Source: Candidatus Bathyarchaeota archaeon
GTDB lineage: Archaea > Thermoproteota > Bathyarchaeia > Bathyarchaeales > Bathyarchaeaceae
Assembly (NCBI GenBank): GCA_029882515.1
Contig: JAOUKN010000006.1
Location: 1 to 43,685 of the forward strand
DNA: 43,685 nt
Direction of reading: 5' to 3'
This document shows positions 1,255-25,854 of the stretch, in pieces. Numbering within the stretch: the first letter of the stretch is position 1; the number at the start of each line of letters is the position of its first letter. The position numbers and the translations under genes are program-made. The notes under the pieces are model-generated. The model was not told where the DNA came from, searched no databases, and worked only from the letters and a program-made list of their open reading frames with translations.

Positions 1255-1375
1255 TTATCCTAACGCAAGAATTAGTTGTTTCCTTCATGTGCACGATCAT
1301 CGAAGGTAGATGAATTACAAATCTACAAATGTCGCTTCCTTGCGTGTGTGTACACGAATTTAACAGAATCGCTAA

Positions 1376-1416
1376 TTTATATACCATGGATAATAAAGAT
1401 TGCAGACTTAGAGGTG
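1376..1416 (+). promoter_or_regulatory. TATA box and Shine-Dalgarno for the crotonase gene
   Basis: TTTATATA lies at 1376-1383, placing transcription start near 1405. GAGGTG at 1411-1416 is 8 nt before the GTG at 1425. Together these favour 1425 as the start over the in-frame ATG at 1386, which would precede the predicted transcript start. Confidence 0.55.
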
Positions 1417-1424
1417 TATCAAGG

Positions 1425-2198
1425 GTGGCAGGGTTCAGAAACATCCTTTTAGAGAAAAAAGACAATGTTGCAAAAATCACAATAAACAGACCGCCCCTCA
1501 ACATCGTTGACATTGAAACTTTAAAGGAGTTAGACAAAGCGCTCAATGATGTAAAAAGAGACGAAAGCGTAAGTTTGTTGATCTTGACCGCTGCCGGCGA
1601 CCGAGCATTTTCCGTAGGATTCGACATCAAGGATCACACACCAGAGAAAGTTGACGAGCTGATCAGGCGGTTCCATGATGTAACCCTTTCACTGATCGAC
1701 CTGGATAAGCCTACAATAGCGGTAGTGGATGGATTAGCCTTAGGTGGAGGTTGCGAATTAATAGCGACCTGTGACATGGTTGTAGCTTCCGAGAAATCTG
1801 AGTTTGGGCAGCCCGAGATCGACGTGGGAGTTTATCCGCCTGTGGCAGTGGTTTTGTTCCCGAGGTTGGTTGGAAGGATGAAGGCTCTCGAACTTATCCT
1901 GACTGGAAAGAGAATCGGTGCGAAGGAAGCTGAAAGAATCGGCTTGGTGAATCGAGTGGTACCGGCAGACAGATTGGAAGAAGAAGTGGATAAGCTGGTG
2001 AGCAAGTTGACGGAGAAAAGCCCAATAGTGCTTGGGCTGGCTAAGAGGGCGTTGTACCGTGGACTTGACATGGAGCTTAAGAAGGCATTAGAAACTGTTA
2101 ACGACTCCTATCTGGGTTTACTTATGCATACAGAAGATGCATTGGAAGGCTTGAAGGCCTTTCTCGAAAAGAAGAAGCCTAGATGGAAGGGGAAATAA
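1425..2198 (+). CDS. Enoyl-CoA hydratase/isomerase family protein, possible cyclohexadienoyl-CoA hydratase
   Basis: Crotonase-fold protein of 257 residues from the GTG at 1425, the usual family length. An ATG at 1386 and another in-frame start at 1329 would add residues not aligned with the family. It has the oxyanion-hole segment 'DRAFSVGFDIKDH', the 'GGGCELIATCD' motif with the first catalytic Glu, and 'FGQPEIDVGVYPPVAVVLFPR' with the second. The 'YPPVAVVLFPR' stretch replaces the common 'PGxGGTQRL' and resembles cyclohexa-1,5-diene-1-carbonyl-CoA hydratases of anaerobic benzoyl-CoA degradation, as I recall that family. The convergent neighbour resembles the ring-opening hydrolase of the same pathway, which supports this. 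A generic enoyl-CoA hydratase remains possible. Confidence 0.85.
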   Translation: MAGFRNILLEKKDNVAKITINRPPLNIVDIETLKELDKALNDVKRDESVSLLILTAAGDRAFSVGFDIKDHTPEKVDELIRRFHDVTLSLIDLDKPTIAVVDGLALGGGCELIATCDMVVASEKSEFGQPEIDVGVYPPVAVVLFPRLVGRMKALELILTGKRIGAKEAERIGLVNRVVPADRLEEEVDKLVSKLTEKSPIVLGLAKRALYRGLDMELKKALETVNDSYLGLLMHTEDALEGLKAFLEKKKPRWKGK

Positions 2199-2290
2199 AC
2201 GCGCACACGAAATAGTAGAGACTCATTCATTTCATTCTAAACAGGCTATGCCTTTCTCTGCAGAAAGTTCAGTCGATCTCCTTGCTACGA

Positions 2291-3292
2291 TTACTCGAGT
2301 TTGACGCCGCATTTTAAGCAATATTTAGATTTCTGTGGAAGATATTCTGCACCACACTTACTGCACTTGCTCAGGTATGGCCCGTAGGGAATCCTCGGGT
2401 CGCCTCCTTTGGCGATGAAGGCGCGGATCTTCTCCATTTCGACCTTTCTCTTTTCTTTGAAAGCCCATAAGCCTTCGCTGGGCTCCATTGATCCAATGTT
2501 GAGGGCAAACCAAGCCTTTCCATGCTCCCATGTGAGACGCCAGACCAGTTCTCTCCACCAGTTATGATGAACCTTATAGTACCAAAGGCTTGATGGAGAC
2601 AGATTCTTCATCCTATCGATATACTCTTTCACCTTACCGTCCAGCTTGTCCAGAGGTACTACCTCGTTGACCACACCATACTTAAGAGCCTCTTCCGCGT
2701 TTATCTGCGAACTTAAGAGAACCATCTCCGCCGACTTCTTTATACTCATATGCAACGGAAGCCATTGCGACAATCCCCCGATAGAGGTCATGCCGACCCT
2801 CGGACCAGGAGAAATGAATCTTGCGTGGTCCGCCGCAATTGCAAGATCACATACGGCGACGAACTCCCAGCCACCCCCAGCCACGGCCCCGTTTACTCGG
2901 GCGATGACAGGCTTTCCACAGTGCATTATCATATCGAAGACTCTAGCGTAGTATTCTCCCCACTCCCAGAACTTCCAAGGCTTTTTATTATATATCCCAG
3001 CGTACTCGTGAACATTTCCACCAGTGCAGAACGCTCGGTCGCCTACACCAGTCATTACTATGAACTGGACGGAATCGTCTCCCATAGCTCTCTCGTAACC
3101 AGCAGCTATCTCTTTTAGAGTTCCAAGGATATACGCGTTCATTTCCTCAGGATTGTTAATGGCAATACACGCGGTGTAATCGTACCAATTGGGATCATAT
3201 TTGACTGTTCGCCAGTCTTTTGGATCCTCAGCTGGATACCAATCGTATTCTCTTTGGGTCATATCCACCACATCAACGGGATTGCTTTTCAA
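2291..3292 (-). CDS. 6-oxocyclohex-1-ene-1-carbonyl-CoA hydrolase-like (BamA/Oah) protein with C-terminal zinc ribbon
   Basis: A 333-residue crotonase-superfamily protein. Motifs include 'GDRAFCTGGNVHEYAG', 'NGAVAGGGWEFVAVCD', and 'GPRVGMTSIGGLSQWLPL', plus the late 'EHGKAWFALNIGSMEPSEGLWAFKE'. That combination matches the BamA/Oah ring-opening hydrolases of benzoyl-CoA metabolism better than ordinary enoyl-CoA hydratases; BadI- or MenB-like enzymes are the alternative. The last 30 residues form a C-x2-C-x11-C-x2-C zinc ribbon ('CSKCGAE...YCLKCG') that I do not know from the bacterial enzymes. It ends 92 bp from the convergent hydratase gene. Superfamily certain; the specific reaction is inferred. 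Confidence 0.75.
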   Translation of the reverse strand: MKSNPVDVVDMTQREYDWYPAEDPKDWRTVKYDPNWYDYTACIAINNPEEMNAYILGTLKEIAAGYERAMGDDSVQFIVMTGVGDRAFCTGGNVHEYAGIYNKKPWKFWEWGEYYARVFDMIMHCGKPVIARVNGAVAGGGWEFVAVCDLAIAADHARFISPGPRVGMTSIGGLSQWLPLHMSIKKSAEMVLLSSQINAEEALKYGVVNEVVPLDKLDGKVKEYIDRMKNLSPSSLWYYKVHHNWWRELVWRLTWEHGKAWFALNIGSMEPSEGLWAFKEKRKVEMEKIRAFIAKGGDPRIPYGPYLSKCSKCGAEYLPQKSKYCLKCGVKLE

Positions 3293-10402: not shown

Positions 10403-11896
10403 CTACTCGCGAAATACAGCATCGAGATAGGCTTGGCGATCAACCGCTGCCCCAGCAGCATTTCCTGCCATGTCCTGAAAAGGACTTGGATAGAACCCAA
10501 TAACGATGGAAAGGAATGCAAGAATTATTGTGGCTACAAGCATAATTTTAGGCGCCTCTGTGGCCTTTTCGGAGATTGCTGTAGTTTCCTTCAGAAAGAT
10601 TGTTTGGATCATTCGCAGACAGTAAGCAGCTGAAAGTGCTAGATTGAGGATCATTAATATGGAAAAAGGAAGCATCCCAGCTTCTACACCCGCTGTCACA
10701 ATTGTCAACTCGCTCCAGAAAAAGTTCAGGGGAGGAATACCAGCTAACGCTATGACTCCTATGGCAAAAAGTCCACTAGAAATTGGCATTGAACGCCCGA
10801 TTCCAGCCAACTCTTTAAGGCTTCGTGTCTTTGTTCTGTAGACAAAGGAACCTACACTAAGGAATAACAATGCCTTCACAAGGGCATGGTTGAAGATGTG
10901 GAACATGCTTCCGGTCAATCCTCGTAGGGATCCAATGGACAGTCCTAATAAAATGTAACCCATATTAGCGATGGTGCTGAAGGCAAGAAGCCGTTTGATG
11001 TCGTCCTGCAACAACGCCATAAGATTTCCGGTAAACATGGTGAGAACGGCGAAGATTGCAAGCGTAATTCCCCAGGCTCCATGCATCATCGGAAACACAA
11101 ACATGAGGACTCGGATAAGCCCATACGCAGCTGTTTTAACCATGGCACCCGAGAGCACAGCGCTTATGGGACTTGGTGCAGCAGAGTGAGCATCTGGCAA
11201 CCACATGTGGAGCGGAGCCATTCCTGCTTGCAGTCCAAACCCAGCAATGATCATGGTAAGAATTAGATACATCCAGACTGTGCCTTCGGACTGAGCGAAG
11301 CTTGCAGACAAGTATGCAATGTTGAGCGTTCCAGTCATACCATACAAGAAAGACATGCCGAAAAGCAAGGTAGCTGCCCCAGCTGCACTCATGATTAGGT
11401 ACTTGTATCCTGCCTCTACTGGTTCCCATTCCTCTTTTCTGAAAGCTACTAAAGCATATGAGCTTACACACATGATTTCCCAAAAGATGAATAGGGTGAA
11501 GAGGTCTCCTGCAAGGACCACTCCTACCATGCCCGTGATCATGCCCAAAAGGAGTGTGTTATATCCGATAAGACCTGGGTTGGGCTCTATGTGTTGAAAG
11601 GAGTAGATGGAGACTGCGAGCCCTATGAGGAGGAATATCAGAACCATGAAGAGCCCTAAGGCGTCAATCTCTAGACAGACGCCTATTGGTGGTGCAGACA
11701 AATTCAGTATTGTTGTTACTTTTCCTTGAGTGAAGCCTTCCATATAGTAGATTGGAAGAAGCAGAAGAGTAAGTGCAAGTCCAAATGCGACATATCCAGT
11801 AACGAGTTTCTTGGAAGCAACCCTCTGGGCCAGCACGTTGATCAATGGAGTGGTAATTGTGAAGACAAGAAGTGAGTCCAGCAGAGGTGTAAACAA
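10403..11896 (-). CDS. nuoN: NuoN/MrpD-type antiporter-like subunit of complex I-like hydrogenase
   Basis: A 497-residue polytopic subunit and the last gene of the 12-gene operon. It shows the antiporter family blocks: '[15 protein letters not shown]' with the TM5 Glu, '[24 protein letters not shown]', '[20 protein letters not shown]', and '[12 protein letters not shown]'. The TM7 residue that is normally Lys, five positions before the conserved Pro, is Gln here ('GLQAGMAP'). By homology it forms one ion channel of the membrane arm. The '[14 protein letters not shown]' block is closer to MrpD/Mbh-type than to bacterial NuoN proteins. Starts one base after the preceding gene ends. TAG stop. 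Confidence 0.9.
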
Positions 11897-12211
11897 CTAC
11901 TCTTTGAGCCTCCTAAGTTCCCTGACATCTAGAGTCCCGTAATGTCTGTACGCGTGAAGAGTAATTGCTAATCCCAATGCGATTATGCATCCCCCGATCC
12001 CAATAGAAATAACCGTGAAAGCATGACCTAATGGATGCGTGGCTCCAAAGACACCATAACTTGAGAAGGTTATAAAGTTCAGATTCACAGCATTCAGCAT
12101 GATCTCCAGTGCGATAAGAAGTCTGATCATATTTCGTTTCACCAAAAGGCAGTAAAGCCCTATGATGTAGAGGACTAAAGAACATGCGAGGTAATAGGCT
12201 AGGGGTATCAA
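11897..12211 (-). CDS. nuoK: NuoK-like membrane subunit
   Basis: A 104-residue protein with three hydrophobic helices, the NuoK/MrpC pattern. The helix-2 Glu is kept in 'LLIALEIMLNAVNLNF' (Glu36 in the E. coli numbering). The helix-3 Glu of NuoK (Glu72) seems to be replaced, since the aligned stretch reads 'ISIGIGGCIIALGLAI', as in hydrogenase and Mrp versions. It would sit between the J and N subunits in the membrane arm. The ATG overlaps the preceding stop codon region by 4 bases, and the next gene follows without a gap. Confidence 0.88.
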   Translation of the reverse strand: MIPLAYYLACSLVLYIIGLYCLLVKRNMIRLLIALEIMLNAVNLNFITFSSYGVFGATHPLGHAFTVISIGIGGCIIALGLAITLHAYRHYGTLDVRELRRLKE

Positions 12212-12483
12212 CTGTGATCACCTTCTTCTATCCGCAAAACTGTTGCGCAGCAAGCTGCAGATACAAACAACAAGAAAGCTAAGATAATCAAATCTAATTG
12301 GCGCTGACCCCAAAGAGTATAACTGACTGCGGTTCCAACCTCATTAACTGGAACCACGGTTTCGGCTATAGAAAACTTGGCATATTCAAAGGGTACGAAA
12401 TCTTGCTGAGCCATTAGGAGAAACAGAAATAAGGTAAGCACCGCGACAAGGGTTCCAAGGATTCTTAACAGATCAACTTTCAT
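12208..12483 (-). CDS. nuoJ: NuoJ-like subunit, C-terminal part (J2)
   Basis: A 91-residue protein from the ATG at 12483 (MKVDLLRILG). A longer frame from 12630 is only an out-of-frame extension over the J1 gene. It has an N-terminal helix, an extracellular loop ('VVPVNEVGTAVSYTLWGQRQ') and a second helix. This corresponds to the C-terminal half of NuoJ, where the 'GT..LF..Y' segment is conserved. Together with the preceding gene it makes a split NuoJ, as in methanogen Fpo (J1/J2) and Mbh/Mrp systems. Start overlaps the J1 stop by 4 bases, suggesting coupled translation. Confidence 0.8.
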   Translation of the reverse strand: MKVDLLRILGTLVAVLTLFLFLLMAQQDFVPFEYAKFSIAETVVPVNEVGTAVSYTLWGQRQLDLIILAFLLFVSAACCATVLRIEEGDHS

Positions 12484-12731
12484 TCTTCTTTCCTCGTTGT
12501 TAGCATGACCACTGAAACGAAGAGAACCACCGCGGCGCCCGCATATATCAACAGCTGGAAAACCATGACATACGGAGCGCTTAGGAAGCCGAAGAGAATT
12601 CCAATGCAAATACACATTCCACATAAACAAATAACCGCATATAGCATGTCCTTAACCTCAACAGTAAATATTGCTAGAGAAGCTATGACCACAATTAGAA
12701 TTGTCTGAAGCAACTCTTCCAACCTAATCAA
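12480..12731 (-). CDS. nuoJ: NuoJ-like subunit, N-terminal part (J1)
   Basis: An 83-residue protein of three hydrophobic helices. It keeps the NuoJ helix-3 core 'FQLLIYAGAAVVLFVSVVMLT', which in complex I contains the pi-bulge region next to the ion channels. The split from the C-terminal half (J2) is real in the sequence, since a stop codon separates them and J2 has its own ATG. It overlaps the M-subunit stop by 4 bases at 12728-12731. Confidence 0.85.
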   Translation of the reverse strand: MIRLEELLQTILIVVIASLAIFTVEVKDMLYAVICLCGMCICIGILFGFLSAPYVMVFQLLIYAGAAVVLFVSVVMLTTRKEE

Positions 12732-14203
12732 CCACCGAGAATCAAACTTGAAAGATATTCTGCAGCGGGCGCAATATACTCTAAGACTAGTCCAGGTAAC
12801 ACTCCAAGCAAAACAGAAATTGTTGCCAAAATGATTACAGGAGCACGTAAGGAGATAGGGGCTTCTTTCATTTCATTGAGTCTTTTTGGAAGAGGACCGA
12901 AAAAAACTCTCCAAACGAACCAAAGATAGTAACCAGCGGTAATCACGGTGCTGAGGACAGCAAAAATAGTAATCAGGCCTTTTCCAGCAGCGAGTCCTCC
13001 ACCAAAAATCATCCACTCACTCCAGAAAGCATTCAGCGGAGGAGTTCCGGCCAAGCTAAAGACACCAATGAGACATGCAATACCCATGACCGGCATTTTT
13101 CCGATTAGACCTCCCAGCCTTCTGATATCTCGTGTTCCTGTTTGGTGTATGATTATGCCAGCGCACAAGAAGAGGAGGCTCTTGCAGACAGCGTGGTTGA
13201 TTATGTGTAGGAGGCCACCCATAATTCCCAATTCAGAGGCAACGCCGAGTCCAAAGAGGATGTAACCCATCTGGCTGATGCTTGAGTAAGCCAACAGCCG
13301 TTTAATGTCAGTTTGTGCTAGAGCCATTAGGCCGCCATAAGCAATTGTGATGATTCCAAGAATCGCAAGATAGTCTGATGCTTGCAACACAATCTGACCA
13401 AAAGTGGTTAATAGAATTCTAGCCATTCCATAAGCTCCACATTTAATCATGACTCCTGACAACATTGCGCTTATCGGGGTAGGAGCCTCCGAGTGTGCGT
13501 CAGGTAGCCACGTATGAACTGGAAACGCCGCCATCTTCACAAGAAATCCAATCAGTAACATGACAAATATTACGCCAACCATGTTTAAGGGGATGTCACC
13601 GGCTACCAACGGCAACTCTAGGAGGTTGAAGGTCTTAGTGTAAGAAAAGACGGCGAGTATGCCAAGAAGCATCGAAAGAGCGCCGATATGGGTGAATATA
13701 AAATATTTGAAAGCAATGTTCAATCTGTTCTTGGAGGTTCCCCAGTTCGCTATCAAGAGGTAAGATGGAATCAACATCAGTTCCCAGAAGAGGTAAAACT
13801 GTATAAGATTCGAAGACAGTATTACCCCAATCATTCCCGTCATGAAGAGCAATAGATTGGCGTAATAAGCAGGTTGGTCTCTTTCCTTCTCCATATACTT
13901 GATGGAATAGAAACAGCAGAGAGTGCTGACGGCCGCTGCGATCAACGCTATTGGGAAACTAACCGTGTCGACCAAGAATCCAAAGTCTACCTTAATGGAA
14001 GGTATCCAAGCATATCTGAACGTTATGGATCCTTGCTTTTCCATTACGTCACTACCCATACTGATAAGCATAACAACAGATGAAGAGGCCGCAATTGTTG
14101 CCATCCACCCCACGCCTCTTCTTATCTGCCTACTGAAAGCATAGAGAAGAATTCCTGCAATTCCAGGAATGACTGTTGCCAACAAAGCCGCATGCTCAAT
14201 CAT
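12728..14203 (-). CDS. nuoM: NuoM-like antiporter subunit
   Basis: A 491-residue polytopic protein. It contains the TM5 Glu in 'FWELMLIPSYLLI', the TM7 Lys in 'VKMAAFPVHTWLPDAHSEAPTPISAML', and 'KRLLAYSSISQMGYILFGLG' with later 'INHAVCKSLLFLCAG'. All of these charged residues needed for ion pumping are present, in contrast to the N subunit. It is one of three antiporter-like subunits of the membrane arm. Placed between L and J in the operon, with 12 bases between it and the L gene. Confidence 0.92.
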   Translation of the reverse strand: MIEHAALLATVIPGIAGILLYAFSRQIRRGVGWMATIAASSSVVMLISMGSDVMEKQGSITFRYAWIPSIKVDFGFLVDTVSFPIALIAAAVSTLCCFYSIKYMEKERDQPAYYANLLLFMTGMIGVILSSNLIQFYLFWELMLIPSYLLIANWGTSKNRLNIAFKYFIFTHIGALSMLLGILAVFSYTKTFNLLELPLVAGDIPLNMVGVIFVMLLIGFLVKMAAFPVHTWLPDAHSEAPTPISAMLSGVMIKCGAYGMARILLTTFGQIVLQASDYLAILGIITIAYGGLMALAQTDIKRLLAYSSISQMGYILFGLGVASELGIMGGLLHIINHAVCKSLLFLCAGIIIHQTGTRDIRRLGGLIGKMPVMGIACLIGVFSLAGTPPLNAFWSEWMIFGGGLAAGKGLITIFAVLSTVITAGYYLWFVWRVFFGPLPKRLNEMKEAPISLRAPVIILATISVLLGVLPGLVLEYIAPAAEYLSSLILGG

Positions 14204-14215
14204 GGGAGCGCCCTC

Positions 14216-16381
14216 CTAAAACCCTCCTCCAAATAAGAGCAAGAGAATCGCTAGCAAAATAAAGCCAGCAAACACTGCTAGTATGTTGTAGGATAAAACT
14301 CCACTTTGTATCTTTCTGAACTTTTCGGAAAGATTAGTAACCGTTTTGGCGATTAGCCTATTGAAGCCCTCTAAGCCTCCGAGTTCTAAGCGGGGGTAAG
14401 CCAATTGTGAAAGCATGGCCATTCCTCTGTAGGCTGTGTCAAGAAATTTCCTAAAGCCCATAATTTGTGGCTTTGTTATTCCTTCCGTCTCCACGTATTT
14501 ATGAGTGATTCTTGCGAGAGACAGAAAGCGGCTAGCCGTGAAACTGTTAAGTAAATTGAGGCCATACTCTAAACTATTATGTATTTTCTGTGAGAAAAAC
14601 CGTGCAGAAGAGGCGACTTTATAATAGAATGCGTCAATGTAGAAGCGATTTCGCAAAAACCTATGGGCTGTCTTCAGAAAACTGTATTTTTCCATTAACC
14701 TCCCAGCGTCAGCTTCATGCATTATATAAATTTTGTAGGCTGGATAGCCTCCAAGTGCCACCGCCACACATGTCAAGACCGTGCTAATCGAAGGAATAAT
14801 GTATCTAAGAACTTCCGTAATGTTGTTGAAAGTCAGTTGCCCTAAGAATGGCATCGGTAGAAGAAACTTGTTAAAAGGCCAGATGAGAAGAATGGCCAAG
14901 AAATCTATGAACGCCGTTAATACAAGAGTTGCAGTAAGGGAAATAGGCATTAGAGACGGGGGCTTCTTGATGCCCTTTCCATCTGATTTGTAACTCTCCT
15001 TTCTAAAAACAAGTCCCATCATTCTAAGACCGTAAAAGGCTGTGATACCAGCTCCAATTATTAACAGAGCAAAAATCAAGTAGCCTAATATCATGTGTGT
15101 AAAAATTCCTGCCTCTGAGGCGAAATCTAAAGCCACTGTTTGAATCCAATTCGTACACCAAAACCCACTCAGGGGCGGTATCCCTGCCAGAGCAAGAGCT
15201 CCCACTTCCATACTTCTATGTGCAATCCTGCTCTTGAACCCGCCCATATGGTGCATATTGTCTGATCCAACTGTATAGGAAATGTAAGCTGCAGAGAGGA
15301 ATAACAGTGCCGAGACGAAGGCGTCCACTGTGAGAAGGAAGGTGCCAGCTAAGTATCCAAAGCTTATGTCAGCCATCAATCCTGCTAAGCCAAACGCTGC
15401 CATCATGTACCCGATCACGCTTGAGATACCATATGAAAGAACTTTGAATATATTATCTTGGGCCATTGCTATGAGAGCGCTAATCACGGCAGTGAGTGCA
15501 CCTACGAGTGCCATGACTAAGAAGAAGTTGACCATGTCACCATATCCTCTGGCTCCATGGAAGATAGGAAGAACTCTGGCCATAAGAAAGGGACCAGCCA
15601 AACACTCAGTCAGAGCGTTGAAGGAGGAAGGTGAAGCAGCCAGTGCATCCGGTAGCCATTCTTGCAGAGGGAACTGAGCCGCCTTTCCTATAGCCCCACC
15701 AAAGAACATGAAGGCGGTGATAAAAAGCATGCCAGACTTCGCTAATTCTCCAATTAAGGTGTTATTTTGTGCGAGTTCTGTGAGGTTAAGGGTCTGAGGA
15801 TCGGAATAGGCGTATATCAACAAAATAGATGCCAGCAAAAGCACGTCTGCAATACGTAGGACCATGAAAGTTTTTAGGCCCATATGGGCTCGTTTAGGGT
15901 CTTTGTGCCAAAACGCGGCGAGGCCGGTGCAGCATATTCCAACTGTTTCCCAGCCTATAAACATGAAGAGGAGGTTGTCTGCCAGCACTATTACCAAGTA
16001 TCCGCCTATGAAAAGCTGTATCAGAAACCAGAATCTAGCCAAACTCGGCTCTTCCTGCATGTACGCCACCGAGAAAACAGTAACTAGAAACCCTATGCAA
16101 GAAATCACACATGCCATCAGCACGCTTAACGGATCAATCAAAACCGACAGCTCAGGATAACGCCATGGAATTCCCAAAGGATCAATCTGTCCAGCAAGAA
16201 TATCTGGAATCATCGAAAAGGCGAAGCAAACACTCAATCCAATTGACAACACAGCCAAGTAACTGCTGGATTTTCGACGAATTGTGCCAATAAGTGGAGT
16301 GACTACAGCTCCTATAATTGGGATGATCCAACAAAGCCATGGCGCATATGGAAACAATGATTGCTGTCCTCCGTTCAACAA
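14216..16381 (-). CDS. nuoL: NuoL-like antiporter subunit with lateral helix
   Basis: A 721-residue protein, the length expected for NuoL including the long amphipathic helix HL and a terminal anchor ('FAGFILLAILLLLFGGGF'). Conserved blocks are 'FIGWETVGICCTGLAAFW', 'GKAAQFPLQEWLPDAL' with the TM7 Lys, 'LTECLAG' and 'LAGIPPLSGFW'. By homology it is the distal pump subunit, with HL running along the membrane arm. Its start overlaps the end of the I gene by 7 bases. Presence of the long C-terminal extension argues for a true complex I-type arm and not a compact Ech-type hydrogenase. Confidence 0.92.
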   Translation of the reverse strand: MLNGGQQSLFPYAPWLCWIIPIIGAVVTPLIGTIRRKSSSYLAVLSIGLSVCFAFSMIPDILAGQIDPLGIPWRYPELSVLIDPLSVLMACVISCIGFLVTVFSVAYMQEEPSLARFWFLIQLFIGGYLVIVLADNLLFMFIGWETVGICCTGLAAFWHKDPKRAHMGLKTFMVLRIADVLLLASILLIYAYSDPQTLNLTELAQNNTLIGELAKSGMLFITAFMFFGGAIGKAAQFPLQEWLPDALAASPSSFNALTECLAGPFLMARVLPIFHGARGYGDMVNFFLVMALVGALTAVISALIAMAQDNIFKVLSYGISSVIGYMMAAFGLAGLMADISFGYLAGTFLLTVDAFVSALLFLSAAYISYTVGSDNMHHMGGFKSRIAHRSMEVGALALAGIPPLSGFWCTNWIQTVALDFASEAGIFTHMILGYLIFALLIIGAGITAFYGLRMMGLVFRKESYKSDGKGIKKPPSLMPISLTATLVLTAFIDFLAILLIWPFNKFLLPMPFLGQLTFNNITEVLRYIIPSISTVLTCVAVALGGYPAYKIYIMHEADAGRLMEKYSFLKTAHRFLRNRFYIDAFYYKVASSARFFSQKIHNSLEYGLNLLNSFTASRFLSLARITHKYVETEGITKPQIMGFRKFLDTAYRGMAMLSQLAYPRLELGGLEGFNRLIAKTVTNLSEKFRKIQSGVLSYNILAVFAGFILLAILLLLFGGGF

Positions 16382-16749
16382 CCCTTTTCTTTGCGGTTCG
16401 ATGAAGGCTTTGACCGTTTGTAATGAATAGTTGCCTCTGTGCGACTAGTGAAGGCGAGTTCAAATTCAGAGGTTGTTTTGATAGTTTTTGTCGGACAAAC
16501 ATCAACACACTCTCCGCAGAAAAGGCAACGGTCCAGATAATATGTAATCTCTGCTTCTGAGCCTTTGCCGGTCAGTTCAATGGCCTTTGACGGACAAATT
16601 TGAGGACAAAGGCCGCATCCAATGCATTTCTCGATGTCCCAAGCAACTTTAGCTCGTATTCCTTCGACTGGCGTCGCCTTCTCTGAGGGATAACATAATG
16701 TTGCAGGTTTCTTGGCCAAGCTCTTCAGAAGTTCCCTTTCCATGGCCAT
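16375..16749 (-). CDS. nuoI: NuoI-like 2x[4Fe-4S] ferredoxin subunit
   Basis: A 124-residue subunit with two [4Fe-4S] sites: 'CIGCGLCPQICP' (about residues 41-52) and 'CLFCGECVDVCP' (about 74-85), each the standard C-x2-C-x2-C-x3-C(P). It transfers electrons between a soluble donor, probably ferredoxin, and the proximal cluster in the B subunit. No NuoE, F or G gene is in the operon, so there is no NADH-binding module. It directly follows the H gene with no spacer, and its end overlaps the L start. Confidence 0.92.
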   Translation of the reverse strand: MAMERELLKSLAKKPATLCYPSEKATPVEGIRAKVAWDIEKCIGCGLCPQICPSKAIELTGKGSEAEITYYLDRCLFCGECVDVCPTKTIKTTSEFELAFTSRTEATIHYKRSKPSSNRKEKGC

Positions 16750-17700
16750 CTAGATCACCACCAATATGATCTGTAAAAGCGCTAGGGGGGTCAAATACTT
16801 CCAAGCACCCTCTAATACTTGATCAATTCTAAATCTCGCAAACAACGCACGTAGATTTGAAAGTATGAATATGCAAACGATGAGTTTTAGAAAAAAGTAG
16901 ACAGATGGGTGTGGTAGCCAGAAACCTAATGGTCCTCCCAGAAACAAAGATACTAACAACGAGCCAGCCAAAACTAACTCGAAATTCTTTGAAAGCTTCA
17001 GCAAAGCCAACTTCTTGCCACTGAACTCTACCAGCCAGCCTGCTACAATTTCACTCTCAGCCTCTGGCACATCGAAAGGAACCCTCTGAAGGTGCGCAAG
17101 CAAGCATATCAACGCTACAGCAAAGCCTAGTGGCTGAGTTATCACATACCAAATTCCCACAGCCTGCGACTGGACAATTCCACTTACAGATAGGCTTTTA
17201 CTTGAGATGGCTGGGCCAATCATTGCAATCGTCATCGGAATCTCATATCCGAGCATTTGAAGCCCAACCCTCATTCCACCTATAGTGCTGAACCGATTTG
17301 TAGAAGCCCAAGCACCCATAAACATGGCAACGATAACCAAAGTCGTTATGAACATAATTACGATCAAGTCTCCTTCAAACCATATAAGAGCTGAATAGTC
17401 GATCATGGGAATCAGGAAAAGTGGTGTCATGGAAAGGGCAAGTACCAGCATGGGTACGACGGAAAATACAGTCTTATCAGCGGCTATGGGTATAATATCC
17501 TCCTTCGCCAAAAGCTTAAAGAAATCCGCCACAGGTTGAAGTATCCCTTTAGGTCCAGTATACAATGGACCATAGCGGTTCTGAAACTTAGCCACAAGTT
17601 TTCGATCCATCCAGTCGCTGAAGAAGGCTAAGCAAAACAAGAACAAGAATCCTGGAAACAAGAATACTTGGAGAAGAGTTACTATTTCTTGCGGTACCAT
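16750..17700 (-). CDS. nuoH: NuoH-like membrane anchor subunit
   Basis: A 316-residue protein with about eight hydrophobic segments. Markers are 'DRKLVAKFQNRYGPLYTGPKG' near the N-terminus and 'RVPFDVPEAESEIVAGW', the Glu-rich loop facing the quinone or hydrogenase junction. The first motif is the usual 'ERK...QxRxGP'. It connects the peripheral arm (B, C, D) to the antiporter subunits. Its 5' end overlaps the large-subunit gene by 19 bases, so the two genes are probably translationally coupled. Confidence 0.92.
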   Translation of the reverse strand: MVPQEIVTLLQVFLFPGFLFLFCLAFFSDWMDRKLVAKFQNRYGPLYTGPKGILQPVADFFKLLAKEDIIPIAADKTVFSVVPMLVLALSMTPLFLIPMIDYSALIWFEGDLIVIMFITTLVIVAMFMGAWASTNRFSTIGGMRVGLQMLGYEIPMTIAMIGPAISSKSLSVSGIVQSQAVGIWYVITQPLGFAVALICLLAHLQRVPFDVPEAESEIVAGWLVEFSGKKLALLKLSKNFELVLAGSLLVSLFLGGPLGFWLPHPSVYFFLKLIVCIFILSNLRALFARFRIDQVLEGAWKYLTPLALLQIILVVI

Positions 17701-18851
17701 TTTGTAGCGTACTTCCTTAACTCCTGTTTATTCCACATCCAACGCTTTCTTGTTGCCGTGTCTACGAAGACCAACCGTTCGGCGCAGGCTATACAGGGGT
17801 CAATACCAGCTATGACAACTGGTATGTCAGCGATATTCTCTCCGATAAGCATCTTACAGAGAGTCGGTATATTGGCAAGTGTTGGAGCTCTCACCTTTAC
17901 CCTCACAGGTTTTTCAGTGCCATCCGCCCTCACATAGTGAAGATCCTCTCCACGTGGTGCCTCCACTAGACTTACGGCTTCACCTTTTGGAACCCGCCTC
18001 GGAACCCTGACCCTAACATCTCCATTTGGAAGGTTATCCAACGCATACCGAATTATGCTGATGCTCTCAAGGACTTCGTCAAGCCTCACCATTAATCTGC
18101 TTGCGACATCACGTCCGTCATAAGTGATCACTTTGAAAGGAATTTCCTCATAGGCTGCGTAAGGGTCGTCTGCCCTAACGTCACGAGGGATGCCACTCGC
18201 TCTTATGGTTGGGCCTACTGCACATAATTCTAAGGCGTCGCTGGGGCTTAGCATCCCTACCCCAACGGTTCTTCTCAGAACTGTGGGATCCTTCGTGCAC
18301 ATTTCCGTATAATATTTCGCCCTTTCTTCAAGGTGGTTAAGGCCCTCCTTCAAAGATGGCATTATCATGGAGGTTATATCTCGGCGTACGCCTCCGATGG
18401 TATTCATTGCGTAGTTCACGCGCTTGCCTGAAATGTTCTCTATTAGTTGTAACACAAGCTCGCGGTCTCTCCACGAGTACATGAAGAGTGTGTTGAACCC
18501 CATTTCATGACCGACATCTCCTAACCAAAGGAAGTGGTTTTGGATTCGCTCCATTTCAGCTAGAATCGTTCTGATGTATTTTGCTCGCGATGGAATCTCA
18601 ATGTTCAAGATTTCTTCCACTGCTTGGGAGAAGCATGTAACGTGGGCGAAGGCGCAGATTCCACATATTCGCTCGATGAGGTAGAGGTTTTGATTGTAAG
18701 TGCGGTTCTCTGCCAGTTTTTCGACTCCTCTATGGATGTATCCAAGACGTGGTCTCACTGAAAGAACCTTTTCGTCACTGACCTCACACATGAAATTTAT
18801 TGGCTCTTTGAGGGCGGGATGTTGCGGGCCAAAGGGAATCCGTGTTGCCAA
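17682..18851 (-). CDS. [NiFe]-hydrogenase large subunit, group 4 type (NuoD homologue)
   Basis: A 389-residue catalytic subunit. It starts 'IPFGPQHPALKEP', and carries both nickel-binding cysteine pairs: L1 'ERICGICAFAHV' at about residues 61-72, and L2 'DPCIACAER' near residue 351-359. Complex I NuoD proteins have lost these cysteines, so this is a hydrogenase that should hold a Ni-Fe centre. In place of the final His after the L2 motif it has Arg, which is typical of group 4 enzymes. About 30 residues follow L2; whether they are cleaved on maturation cannot be told, and no hyp or endopeptidase gene is in the window. It should reversibly reduce protons to H2. It sits between C and H genes of the operon. 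Confidence 0.92.
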   Translation of the reverse strand: MATRIPFGPQHPALKEPINFMCEVSDEKVLSVRPRLGYIHRGVEKLAENRTYNQNLYLIERICGICAFAHVTCFSQAVEEILNIEIPSRAKYIRTILAEMERIQNHFLWLGDVGHEMGFNTLFMYSWRDRELVLQLIENISGKRVNYAMNTIGGVRRDITSMIMPSLKEGLNHLEERAKYYTEMCTKDPTVLRRTVGVGMLSPSDALELCAVGPTIRASGIPRDVRADDPYAAYEEIPFKVITYDGRDVASRLMVRLDEVLESISIIRYALDNLPNGDVRVRVPRRVPKGEAVSLVEAPRGEDLHYVRADGTEKPVRVKVRAPTLANIPTLCKMLIGENIADIPVVIAGIDPCIACAERLVFVDTATRKRWMWNKQELRKYATKWYRKK

Positions 18852-21047: not shown

Positions 21048-21061
21048 CTAAAGTGATTGAC

Positions 21062-23023
21062 ATGCTGTTCAAACCTATTACCTGGGTCAAGAAAGACCCA
21101 GAAAAAAGCAATGTGTTTTGGCCTTCGGACGAACTCAAAAAAAGAGCATGGGTAAATGCGGATTCAATCTATGTGGAGGCAGCGAAAGACCGTGTGGCTT
21201 TTTGGGCAAAACTTGCCCGTGAAGGAATTGACTGGTTCAAAAAATGGGATGAAGCCTACCGAGAGGAGATGCCATACTACAAATGGTTTGTTAACGGAAA
21301 ACTAAACATTTCGTACAATGCGTTAGACAGACACGTAAAAACCTGGAGAAGAAACAAAGCGGCAATAATATGGGTGCCCGAACCTCTGGATGAAAAAGAA
21401 AGGGTGCTTACGTACTTTGACTTGAGCCGTGAAGTCAACAAATTCGCTAACGTACTGAAGACACTCGGAGTGAAAAAAGGCGACCGAGTTGGAATATACT
21501 TACCAATGATCCCGGAAGTCCAAATAGCCATGCTGGCATGCGCCCGCATTGGAGCCATACACAGCGTAGTCTTTTCTGCCTTCAGTGGCAAGTCCTTGCA
21601 AGAAAGAATGCTTGACGCTGAAGCTAAAGTCCTCGTAACAGTGGACGGATATCACAGACGTGGAAAACAAATAACCTTGAAGACTGAAGCAGACAAGGGA
21701 ATTGAAGGAACACCGATACAGAAAGTTGTAGTTGTGAAACGAATGGGAATGGATGTGAACATGGTTGAAGGTCGAGACTACTGGTGGCATGATTTAATGA
21801 AAAATGCAGACAGTTCATGTGAACCCGAGGTCATGGACAGCGAAGACATATTGTACCTTCTTTACACAAGCGGCACAACAGGCAAACCCAAAGGAGTTGA
21901 ACACCACACGGGCGGATATGCGGTACAAGCGTACTGGACGGCAAAATGGGACTTTGATCTTCATGATGAAGATGTCTTCTGGTGCACTGCCGACATTGGC
22001 TGGGTTACAGGTCACACCTACGGCTGCTACGGGCCACTACTATGCGGTGCCACGATGTTAGAGTATGAAGGCGCCCCAAACCATCCACAACTAGACAGGT
22101 GGTGGAGCATAGTAGAAAAATATGGTGTGTCAGTCTTTTATACGGCTCCGACAGCGATAAGAATGTTCATGCAATGGGGCGAAAAATGGCCTAGAAAGCA
22201 TAACCTAAACAGTCTGCGAATACTCGGAACAGTAGGTGAACCAATAAACGAAGAAGCTTGGTTATGGTATTTCAACAATATCGGCGGTGGAAGATGCCCA
22301 GTAATTGATACCTGGTGGCAAACTGAAACCGGAGGAACATTGATCAACTCATTGCCAGGCATAGGTCCGTTCATCCCAACGGTTGCTGGTAGAAGCTTCC
22401 CAGGCACAAACCATGATGTGCTAGACGAGTCGGGAAGCCCTATGAACATTGGCGAAGGAGGTTATTTGGTGCAGAAAAGTCCGTTTGCACCTGGAATGCT
22501 TAGAAACGTATGGAAAAACCCAGCAAGATACAAGGAATACTTCAGCGTTTATAGCGAAAAATACTACACAAGTGATGGAGCACGAAGGTGGGATGAACTT
22601 GGAAATATTCGGTTAACTGGGAGAGTTGACGATGTAATGAAGGTAGCAGGCCACAGGCTGTCAACGGCAGAGCTAGAAAACGCGATAACAAGCCATGAAG
22701 CGGTTGTGGAATGTGCAGTTGTGGCAGCCCCACACGAAATAAAAGGTGAAGTACCTGTAGCTTTTGTAACTCTAAGATCTGACGTAGAACCTTCAGATCA
22801 GCTCATAAAAGATCTGATAAAGCATGTTGACGCAACGATTGGACCAACGGCACGACCTGACAAGATAGTATTTACTAATGAACTGCCAAAAACACGAAGC
22901 GGAAAAATCATGCGAAGAATCTTGAAGTCCTTGGTCAGAAACGAACCCATCGGAGACACTACAACGCTCATGAACCCGGAGTCGGTTCAGCTACTTAAAG
23001 ACGAGGTTGGTTACAAGGAATAA
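21062..23023 (+). CDS. acsA: Acetyl-CoA synthetase (AMP-forming)
   Basis: A 653-residue adenylate-forming enzyme counted from the ATG at 21062; a GTG at 21053 is an alternative. Neither has a clear ribosome site, so a short or absent leader is likely. It has the P-loop 'YTSGTTGKPKG', 'DTWWQTETGG' with the Trp that limits the pocket to acetate, 'RVDDVMKVAGHRLSTAEL', and the C-terminal 'PKTRSGKIMRR' with the catalytic Lys. That Lys is the residue acetylated by Pat-type enzymes in bacteria, and a GNAT-fused protein is encoded convergently next door. Reaction: acetate + ATP + CoA to acetyl-CoA + AMP + PPi. The PPi can be used by the membrane pyrophosphatase. Confidence 0.95.
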   Translation: MLFKPITWVKKDPEKSNVFWPSDELKKRAWVNADSIYVEAAKDRVAFWAKLAREGIDWFKKWDEAYREEMPYYKWFVNGKLNISYNALDRHVKTWRRNKAAIIWVPEPLDEKERVLTYFDLSREVNKFANVLKTLGVKKGDRVGIYLPMIPEVQIAMLACARIGAIHSVVFSAFSGKSLQERMLDAEAKVLVTVDGYHRRGKQITLKTEADKGIEGTPIQKVVVVKRMGMDVNMVEGRDYWWHDLMKNADSSCEPEVMDSEDILYLLYTSGTTGKPKGVEHHTGGYAVQAYWTAKWDFDLHDEDVFWCTADIGWVTGHTYGCYGPLLCGATMLEYEGAPNHPQLDRWWSIVEKYGVSVFYTAPTAIRMFMQWGEKWPRKHNLNSLRILGTVGEPINEEAWLWYFNNIGGGRCPVIDTWWQTETGGTLINSLPGIGPFIPTVAGRSFPGTNHDVLDESGSPMNIGEGGYLVQKSPFAPGMLRNVWKNPARYKEYFSVYSEKYYTSDGARRWDELGNIRLTGRVDDVMKVAGHRLSTAELENAITSHEAVVECAVVAAPHEIKGEVPVAFVTLRSDVEPSDQLIKDLIKHVDATIGPTARPDKIVFTNELPKTRSGKIMRRILKSLVRNEPIGDTTTLMNPESVQLLKDEVGYKE

Positions 23024-23027
23024 CCCC

Positions 23028-23061
23028 CTCTTTTTACCCACGCTTTTTATGAAAAGAAGCG
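23028..23061. terminator. Intergenic terminator between convergent genes
   Basis: A T-rich run (CTCTTTTT) at 23028-23035 follows the synthetase stop. An imperfect hairpin (CGCTT with AAGCG arms) is at 23041-23061. Both are in the 143-bp space between two convergent genes. Confidence 0.4.
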
Positions 23062-23166
23062 TTCGATAGATCTAGGAAATTCTATAGAATAAATTGAAAT
23101 TTCAAAGTCAGGAACCCATGTAGGGAATGGGCTTATATTACGCAGCCCAAAAGAAGTGGATGAAAA

Positions 23167-25854
23167 TTAGAATAGTCCCATTGTTGCTCTGACAGTGTCT
23201 TCGTCAACAGACTCTATCTTGAATCCTTTCTTAGTGCAAAGACGAATCATCTTAAGGTTCCTTGACAGGATGTCCCCACTGATTGTCTCCAACATCATGT
23301 CTCTGCTAATCTCAAGGATATAGTCGACTAATTTCGACCCAAGCCCAAGCCCTTGCCACTGGTCTCCCACAACCACAGCAAACTCGCCGCGTTTCTGCCC
23401 AGGTTCCAGGATGAGTCGTGAAGCACCAATAATTCTTCTCTTGTCTTTCTTCTCTTCTGCTACTATAGCGATTTCTCGGTTATAGTCTATGTTGCAATAC
23501 CTAGTTAAGGTTACGTGGGGCATATCTTTGATCACCTGAAAGAACCGGAACCGCATCGTTTCCTCTGAAAAAGACTGAAACAGTTCATAGAGAAGAGGTT
23601 CGTCTTCAGGCTTTATGGGGCGGAGAACAACAGATGTTCCATCTTTTGACTTCCATTGGGCAATATACTTCTTGGGATATGGAGTAATCACGGTGTGTTC
23701 GTGAGGTTGGACTTTTCGCAGAATTACTTCCGTGTCTATGACTATACGAGCGTCCACGGCCACAGCATCGTTTTCGCTAACCATGATTGGGTTTATGTCT
23801 ATTTCTTTTATTTCGGGAAAATCGATCACAAGCTGAGAGAACTTCACCAAGATTTCTTCAAGTTTAGCACAAACAGGACACTCACTTGATTCCAAAAGTT
23901 TGTAAATAGCGGTCTTCTCCATAAGCCGCCTTGCAAGCACCTGGTTTAGCGGTGGAAATCCTATGTTTACGTCTTTTAACAACTCTGTGGCAACTCCGCC
24001 CATGCCAAAGACGATGACTGAACCAAAATGCGGGTCTTTCTTTGAACCGATTAAAATTTCGCCGCTTTTCTTCTGGATCATCGGTTGGATGGCAACACCA
24101 TGAAATTCTGCTCCAGATTTGTATTCCCTGACTTTTTCCGCCAACTCTTTGAAGAACCTCTTGACTTGTGCAGGTGTCCACACATTCAAAACAACTCCTT
24201 CAACTTTAGATTTATGAACTATCTGTGGCGATAGCACCTTAAGAACGACAGGATACCCCAGTTTAGAGGCTGCAGTTATGGCTTCTTCCGAAGTTTTGGC
24301 AACAAGGGTCTTTATTGTCGGGATTTTGTAGGCTTCAAGAAAATGCAGAGACTCATGTGTATTTAGAACTTTCTGTCCTTTCTTAAAGGCCGTTTCTAAA
24401 ACTTCTTTGAGAAATTTGGGAATGGACAAGTCCACGGAAAACTCCTCGGGAGTTTCGTACAAGAGCTCTAGGTTCTTCGTGTAACCATGCATATACATGA
24501 AGGTGGAAACCGCCTGCTCGGGTGTCGCGAATGCTGGAATACCGTTCTTTCGTAGGATTCTTTTGGCATTCCGGCAGCTGTCCTCACCTATTAGAGAGGT
24601 AAGGATGGGCTTCTTGATTTGTGTCGAAAGTTCTACGATTATCTTTGCGGTTTCATCTGGATCCGCTGCGCCTTGAGGGGTGTATATGATTAAGAAGCCA
24701 TCGCTGTTAAGATCTTTGAAGCAGATTTCCATAACTTTCCTAAACCTATCTGCAGTAGCTTCCTCCAAGATGTCAATAGGATTCTGGGTGCTACAGTAAG
24801 AAGGTAGAACACTGTCCAACGCGTGAATAGTTTTGCTACTTAGCGCTGGAAGCTTCCCACCTTTCGCGATGAGGAAGTCAGTAGCCATAATTCCAGGTCC
24901 GCCCGCATTGCTGATTATGGTGAGGTTTGGACCTTTAGGGTTCGGCTGCATGGCCAAAGCTTCGGCGCAGCTAAAAAGATTGTTTATCGCCTCAACACGA
25001 ACTATTCCGGCGCGTCTAAAAGCAGCACCATAAACAGCGTCCTCTCCGCACAGAGCCCCAGTATGAGACAACGCTGCCTCAGCGCTTTCAGGAAAGCGCC
25101 CTGCCTTCACGACTATAATAGGTTTAGTCCTAGCAAATCCCCTCGTTGCACTCACAAACTTCCGTGCATTCTTGATAGACTCGATATAAAGCACAATGCT
25201 TGTTGTCTGAGGGTCAGTCCCAAAGTAGTCGACTAAATCTCCGAAATCGACATCGAGCATTGACCCCACGGAAACCACAGCACTAAATCCTACGTGAGCT
25301 TCCGAAGCCCAATCTAGCACGGAAGCACATAACGCCGCACTCTGTGAAATGAATGCTATCTTCCCGGAGTTGGCTGCTTTGTTCGCAAAACTGGCGTTAA
25401 ACTTGATTCTTGGGCGCATCACGCCAAGGCTGTTAGGTCCAATGATGCGCATGTTGTAACGGTTTTTGTGTTCAAGAATTTGTTTCTCAAAAGCTTCTCC
25501 TTCTTCTCCAGCCTCCTTGAAACCTGCTGAGACAATAATTATTCCTGAAACTCCGGCCGTTCCGCACTCTTCGACGATCTGCGGAACAGTATGTGCCGGA
25601 GTTGCTATGATCGCCAGATCTATTTGTCGTGGGATTCTCTTAATATTGGGGTAGGCGGTTATGCCGTGTACAGTGGGTCTGAAAGGATTGACGGGATAAA
25701 CTACCCCTTTGTAGCCCACGCCAATCAGATTTCGAAGCAATTTGGTGCCTACAGAGTCTTCTCTGTCACTTGCTCCGATAACGGCGATTCTTTGGGGATT
25801 GAAGATTTTACTGAGTTTTTCAGTGCCCACTTCTGAAGTTTCCTCCCCGTTCAC
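23167..25854 (-). CDS. ADP-forming acyl/acetyl-CoA synthetase fused to GNAT acetyltransferase (Pat-like)
   Basis: An 895-residue fusion. In order: CoA-binding domain (about 14-130, 'RIAVIGASDREDSVG'), CoA-ligase domain with Glu225 ('YIESIKN') and the active-site His264 ('LSHTGAL'), ATP-grasp domain (about 490-705, 'VHKSKVEGV', 'FGSVIVFGMGGVATE', 'EIDINPI'), and a C-terminal GNAT domain (about 735-895) with the acetyl-CoA loop 'DQWQGLGLGSKL'. The layout is that of bacterial protein acetyltransferase Pat/YfiQ, but those have lost the ligase His while it is kept here. It may therefore make acetate plus ATP from acetyl-CoA, or acetylate the synthetase next door, or both. Convergent with acsA. Confidence 0.88.
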   Translation of the reverse strand: MNGEETSEVGTEKLSKIFNPQRIAVIGASDREDSVGTKLLRNLIGVGYKGVVYPVNPFRPTVHGITAYPNIKRIPRQIDLAIIATPAHTVPQIVEECGTAGVSGIIIVSAGFKEAGEEGEAFEKQILEHKNRYNMRIIGPNSLGVMRPRIKFNASFANKAANSGKIAFISQSAALCASVLDWASEAHVGFSAVVSVGSMLDVDFGDLVDYFGTDPQTTSIVLYIESIKNARKFVSATRGFARTKPIIVVKAGRFPESAEAALSHTGALCGEDAVYGAAFRRAGIVRVEAINNLFSCAEALAMQPNPKGPNLTIISNAGGPGIMATDFLIAKGGKLPALSSKTIHALDSVLPSYCSTQNPIDILEEATADRFRKVMEICFKDLNSDGFLIIYTPQGAADPDETAKIIVELSTQIKKPILTSLIGEDSCRNAKRILRKNGIPAFATPEQAVSTFMYMHGYTKNLELLYETPEEFSVDLSIPKFLKEVLETAFKKGQKVLNTHESLHFLEAYKIPTIKTLVAKTSEEAITAASKLGYPVVLKVLSPQIVHKSKVEGVVLNVWTPAQVKRFFKELAEKVREYKSGAEFHGVAIQPMIQKKSGEILIGSKKDPHFGSVIVFGMGGVATELLKDVNIGFPPLNQVLARRLMEKTAIYKLLESSECPVCAKLEEILVKFSQLVIDFPEIKEIDINPIMVSENDAVAVDARIVIDTEVILRKVQPHEHTVITPYPKKYIAQWKSKDGTSVVLRPIKPEDEPLLYELFQSFSEETMRFRFFQVIKDMPHVTLTRYCNIDYNREIAIVAEEKKDKRRIIGASRLILEPGQKRGEFAVVVGDQWQGLGLGSKLVDYILEISRDMMLETISGDILSRNLKMIRLCTKKGFKIESVDEDTVRATMGLF

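Follow-up and report, generated by a model that had tools for sequence, protein, structure and literature searches.

The window analysed here, 43,685 nt of DNA from a Candidatus Bathyarchaeota archaeon (assembly GCA_029882515.1, contig JAOUKN010000006.1), is one entire contig of a 2.2 Mb draft genome that consists of 230 contigs and is 88% complete. It carries two convergent crotonase genes, named CrtA and CrtB below, which are separated by 92 bp and are predicted to belong to the lower benzoyl-CoA pathway (Table 1). An earlier note, made from the sequence alone, had read the two genes as possibly such a pair, and both open reading frames (ORFs) were found where it had placed them, with matches to the crotonase family PF00378 of 203 bits for CrtA and 154 bits for CrtB. 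The longest ORF of CrtA is 1329-2198 (+), i.e. 289 aa. As the homologues of CrtA have lengths of 256-258 aa, the GTG start given in Table 1 is the better choice. The genome G137, which belongs to the same order, shows the convergent layout as well, and this argues against a chance juxtaposition of the two genes.

Table 1. Positions of the two crotonase genes and of the zinc ribbon in the window
Feature	Position	Strand	Description
CrtA	1425-2198	+	crotonase, start GTG 1425, 257 aa; predicted Dch/BamR-type dienoyl-CoA hydratase
CrtB	2291-3292	-	crotonase, 333 aa; predicted divergent BamA-type ring-opening enzyme
CrtB C-terminal zinc ribbon (C310xxC313...C325xxC328)	2306-2368	-	PF13240 22 bits, E 1.4e-4

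Placement of CrtA among the crotonases

The top NCBIfam match of CrtA is the short-chain-enoyl-CoA hydratase. A search of plasmids for a reference Dch turned up only BadI, MenB, and general crotonases. Geobacter BamR and Thauera Dch share 73% identity (PMC1924859), which indicates that canonical BamR does not account for all of the bacterial crotonases adjoining BamQ. For this reason, rows of canonical Dch were added to the tree, which comprises 81 crotonases. CrtA lies inside a clade of 55 rows with a support of 100/100, which also contains the Bathyarchaeota homologues, two TIGR03189-positive Dch (439 and 430 bits), and 28 crotonases whose genes adjoin BamQ or BamA. All Bathyarchaeota paralogues and the five further crotonases of the same genome that were included fall outside this clade, and CrtA is apart from every beta-oxidation crotonase compared. 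A position of CrtA among the general beta-oxidation enzymes, which would have spoken against the earlier note, was thus not found; CrtA belongs to the Dch/BamR clade instead.

The residues and the gene neighbourhoods of CrtA also resemble those of Dch/BamR. CrtA has both catalytic glutamates of the enoyl-CoA hydratase type (E143 and E163 in the numbering of the 289-aa ORF) and the Dch-type motif GQPEI..GVYPP.A..FP. The alignment of the clade revealed the common motif GQPEI..GV[FY]PP.A, whereas beta-oxidation enzymes carry G.IPGWGGTQR at this place. The closest relative of CrtA (64% identity, genome G244) adjoins BamQ, with bzdNOP about 4 kb away, and homologues in other Bathyarchaeota adjoin BamQ and bzdNO. 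The difference from Dch lies in the overall sequence, as CrtA is only 31-36% identical to the two canonical enzymes.

Relation of CrtB to BamA, BadI, and MenB

The top NCBIfam family of CrtB is TIGR03200 (BamA), with a score of 145.7 bits and a match that covers residues 39-221 only. The BadI and MenB models are close behind, e.g. TIGR03210 (badI) with 134 bits. The BLAST scores to BadI equal those to BamA, so BLAST does not separate BamA, BadI, and MenB. CrtB shares a superfamily branch and the GP[RK]VG loop with BadI and MenB, and its best relatives with solved structures are MenB proteins. No BamA structure is among the 60 PDB entries that best match a canonical BamA in sequence, and a plasmid search for a reference BamA again turned up only BadI, MenB, and general crotonases.

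We compared the residues of CrtB with those of 60 BamA and 17 further crotonases from plasmids, mostly BadI/MenB-like. CrtB retains the residues Y54, E96, Y97, D120, E143, G173, W251, and W261, which are invariant or nearly invariant in BamA and are not present at the same positions in the compared BadI and MenB proteins. The latter lack the EY, Y54, D120, and W261 positions that are common to CrtB and BamA, and they have Val at the position of E143, which corresponds to Glu144 of enoyl-CoA hydratase. OAH is bifunctional and catalyses a hydration, followed by the hydrolysis of the ring (PMC5742626). The conserved E143 of CrtB would fit the BamA reaction, because BamA hydrates a double bond prior to ring cleavage, while BadI presumably need not do so. 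In agreement with the residues, trees join CrtB with BamA with supports of 100/94 and 100/95.

These results bear on the possibility that CrtB is a BadI-type 2-ketocyclohexane-1-carbonyl-CoA hydrolase of a cyclohexanecarboxylate-type (bad/ali) route that leads to pimelyl-CoA. The similar model scores and the equal BLAST scores are compatible with this assignment. The grouping with BamA, the lack of BadI/MenB residues at the diagnostic positions, with Glu143 in place of Val, and the presence of BamQ, an enzyme of the BamA route, in the same genome all argue against it, and we regard it as improbable.

The preferred assignment of CrtB to a BamA-type enzyme does not make it a canonical BamA. On the one hand, it has the signatures FCTGGN..EYA..Y, E143, GP[RK].G....GG, and W261 of BamA, its gene occupies the same genomic slot beside BamQ and the BamR/Dch gene, and a ring-opening role would be expected. 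On the other hand, it is only 31-32% identical to BamA overall, lacks the N-terminal insert and the insert of about 45 residues, and has a C-terminal zinc ribbon. The PF13240 match is just below the gathering score of 25; in the alignment, the zinc ribbon is present in all nine CrtB rows and absent from the three canonical BamA rows. The earlier note had seen a resemblance to the 6-oxocyclohexenyl-CoA hydrolase, and the grouping with BamA over MenB and BadI bears this out, with the qualification that the enzyme belongs to a divergent BamA-like family. CrtB is thus outside the formal BamA equivalog, yet it probably works like BamA.

Benzoyl-CoA reductase, BamQ, and gene order in relatives

The earlier note had named a BamQ-like dehydrogenase and a benzoyl-CoA reductase in the same genome as a check, and both were found on other contigs. 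On contig C61, BzdO (TIGR03191, 540.3 bits, cut-off 448.6) and BzdQ (TIGR03192, 391.2 bits, cut-off 380.2) exceed the cut-offs, and BzdN (TIGR03190, 444.8 bits) is 9 bits under the cut-off of 453.8. The order of the genes is BzdN, BzdO, an activase-type subunit at the position of BzdP, BzdQ, a ferredoxin-like ORF of 98 aa, and a BzdV-like protein, followed by DUF35, thiolase, enoyl-CoA hydratase, 3-hydroxyacyl-CoA dehydrogenase, and AMP-forming acyl-CoA ligase genes. On sequence grounds, the cluster is a bzd-type class I benzoyl-CoA reductase, although BzdN is slightly short of its cut-off. BamQ/Had is encoded on contig C20 and reaches 403.7 bits with TIGR03201 (cut-off 338.65), in spite of the fact that the gene is cut by the contig end. 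The pathway proteins of both contigs share 56-84% identity with those of other Bathyarchaeota genomes, several of which are single-contig chromosomes, and contamination of the bin is therefore an unlikely source of these genes.

HGD-D pairs on contigs C136 and C206 were considered as additional benzoyl-CoA reductases and rejected, as their scores are well below the cut-offs and they match hydroxyacyl-CoA dehydratases. Near the pair on C136 (L034:290-5940) are a gene for an HpaB-family protein and genes for an enoyl-CoA hydratase and an acyl-CoA dehydrogenase.

In other genomes of the group, CrtB is associated with BamQ, Dch, and the benzoyl-CoA reductase. G137, which is rated 100% complete, has the order BamQ-CrtB-CrtA-bzdNOPQ-bzdV-DUF35-thiolase-ECH-HBD-ligase on one contig. 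Three further genomes (G066, G164, and G223) have a canonical BamA beside BamQ in the same cluster, at the place where G137 has CrtB. G060 has the same order, BamA-BamQ-CrtA-bzdN, as far as the contig end, and in G200 CrtB directly adjoins a truncated BamQ. A scan of named genomes with a BamQ query covered 80 loci, among which CrtB occurs only in the record of G137 and in no bacterium; CrtB may exist elsewhere.

Two additional features of these neighbourhoods were observed. In two genomes with CrtB and without BamQ, a zinc alcohol dehydrogenase adjoins CrtA at the usual place of BamQ (L127:6629-7642, corresponding to G029:C5:24628-25638, and G202:C1:908805-909815). It has a TIGR03201 score of 223.7 bits, below the cut-off given above for BamQ, and possibly represents a replaced dehydrogenase step. 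Furthermore, several Bathyarchaeota clusters have two conserved proteins encoded in the vicinity of BamA or CrtB, one of 629 aa from the aldehyde ferredoxin oxidoreductase family and one of 339 aa without an NCBIfam match (L114:8820-10709, with equivalents in L120, L121, L122, and L123).

To estimate the distribution, 251 genomes of the class were scanned. CrtB is present in 13, BzdO in 19, BamQ in 13, and canonical BamA in 8 genomes (two partial genes counted). Both crotonases co-occur with BzdO, with p = 6e-9 for CrtB and p = 1e-18 for CrtA. Together with the trees and the conserved neighbourhoods, these values already contradict the view that CrtA and CrtB are ordinary beta-oxidation or menaquinone crotonases without a link to aromatic compounds. 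The top NCBIfam match of CrtA and the MenB structures as relatives of CrtB would be in line with that view, which we nevertheless consider very improbable.

Among the 20 genomes that contain BzdO or BamQ, nine have only CrtB, seven have only BamA, one has both, and three have neither. Thus, CrtB and canonical BamA come close to excluding one another (Fisher p = 0.0099, uncorrected for relatedness). G137, G186 (96% complete), and G180 (a single chromosome, 90% complete) contain bzd genes, BamQ, CrtA, and CrtB and yielded no canonical BamA match. The sole genome with both is G245, in which a BamA fragment is located at a contig edge (G245:C20:2-298, L142). It shares 64% identity with the Bathyarchaeota BamA that served as query, compared with 80-90% among the compared Bathyarchaeota BamA, and may be a contaminant or a binning error.

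The proposed pathway and its alternatives

The gene content, phylogenetic placements, common residues, gene order, and near mutual exclusion observed here point to a lower benzoyl-CoA pathway with CrtA as the hydratase and a divergent BamA-type CrtB as the ring-opening enzyme, a reading to which we assign a probability of about 0.7. From these observations we infer the substrates, the catalysis, and the expression of the pathway and its use for growth. The chemistry of DCH, HAD, and OAH is known (PMC5742626). Three enzymes act on the product of the benzoyl-CoA reductase, and CrtA and CrtB would be two of them. CrtA would add water to cyclohexa-1,5-diene-1-carbonyl-CoA, and CrtB would hydrate the remaining double bond and then hydrolyse a C-C bond of the ring, yielding 3-hydroxypimelyl-CoA, which would enter beta-oxidation. 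The suggestion that the pair supports growth on aromatic compounds holds as genomic potential, and as no more than that. The wider reading as a lower benzoyl-CoA gene pair has withstood the checks, because a reductase is present and both crotonases are outside the beta-oxidation and menaquinone clades.

Several observations weigh against the proposed pathway. The pair shares no operon with bzd genes inside the window, and in a draft of this completeness and fragmentation a canonical BamA could be absent from the assembly only. The resemblance of both proteins to the families named in the earlier note is real and remote: CrtA scores 154.5 bits with TIGR03189 (Dch, cut-off 292.5), and CrtB is far below the curated BamA cut-off of 464.45 over a partial length. 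The other Bathyarchaeota homologues of CrtA are likewise below the TIGR03189 cut-off, as are five bacterial crotonases that adjoin BamQ-BamA (189 bits or less). In the active-site loop of BamA, S168 (100% in BamA) is replaced by M and H166 (95%) by V in all CrtB, and the conserved G160 is I in CrtB. The approximately unbiased (AU) test rejects a grouping of CrtB with BadI/MenB only at p = 0.042 and retains a grouping of BamA with BadI/MenB without CrtB (p = 0.0725). The AlphaFold model of CrtB has a low confidence, with a mean pLDDT of 64, and is weak in the active-site loops. Lastly, G029 (99% complete) and G130 lack a BamQ above the threshold, although both carry CrtB together with bzd genes.

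Some of these points would also be expected if CrtB belonged to the benzoyl-CoA gene set and acted on another cyclic substrate, e.g. a substituted ring or a branch of the pathway, with the genome's own canonical BamA lying in an assembly gap. The loop changes S168M and H166V, the genomes that have CrtB and lack BamQ (G029 and G130) or BzdO (G202, G010, and G042), and the coexistence of CrtB with a BamA fragment in G245 are consistent with this explanation. It is at odds with G137, G186, and G180, in which the set of bzd genes, BamQ, CrtA, and CrtB is accompanied by no canonical BamA match, and with the occupation of the BamA slot by CrtB in G137, and the divergent fragment of G245 may not belong to that genome. 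We regard another substrate as unlikely.

The proposed ring-opening role would make CrtB a divergent relative of BamA, equipped with a zinc ribbon, which replaces the canonical enzyme in a subset of the Bathyarchaeota. On balance, we favour the view that a distinct family of zinc-ribbon ring-opening hydrolases, with CrtB as its founding type, is missed by the current curated model. BamA is a common marker of anaerobic aromatic degradation. If CrtB does the job of BamA, genomes with CrtB would seem to lack the ring-opening step in scans with the BamA model.

The pathway as such is already known from genomes of Bathyarchaeota. Class I benzoyl-CoA reductase and dch, had, and oah have been reported for metagenome-assembled genomes (MAGs) of Bathyarchaeota and Thermoplasmata from deep-sea seeps (PMC6472368), so the present pair is not the first such archaeal case. 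The same gene set was reported for the same archaeal group, with the difference that, in the parts of that article consulted here, oah was assigned by annotation and no divergent hydrolase family was set apart. The same combination of class I reductase, dch, had, and oah has also been reported for Hermodarchaeota (PMC8163825), and the aromatic genes of Bathyarchaeia listed in a 2025 review include benzoyl-CoA reductase (PMC12694404). For Bathyarchaeum tardum, only partial bcr genes were found, and benzoate is inhibitory (PMC10477458). No description of the CrtB family was found in the open-licence papers searched. The new element is the divergent ring-opening enzyme. CrtA and CrtB are two defined enzymes that bear on whether Bathyarchaeota, which are abundant in anoxic sediments, can run the pathway predicted from their genomes.

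Elsewhere in the window, a cluster of complex-I-like subunits is encoded at 10403-18851 (-), comprising three antiporter-type subunits, a NuoH-like subunit, and a 49-kDa-like subunit, and acetate-activating enzymes are encoded at 21053-25854.
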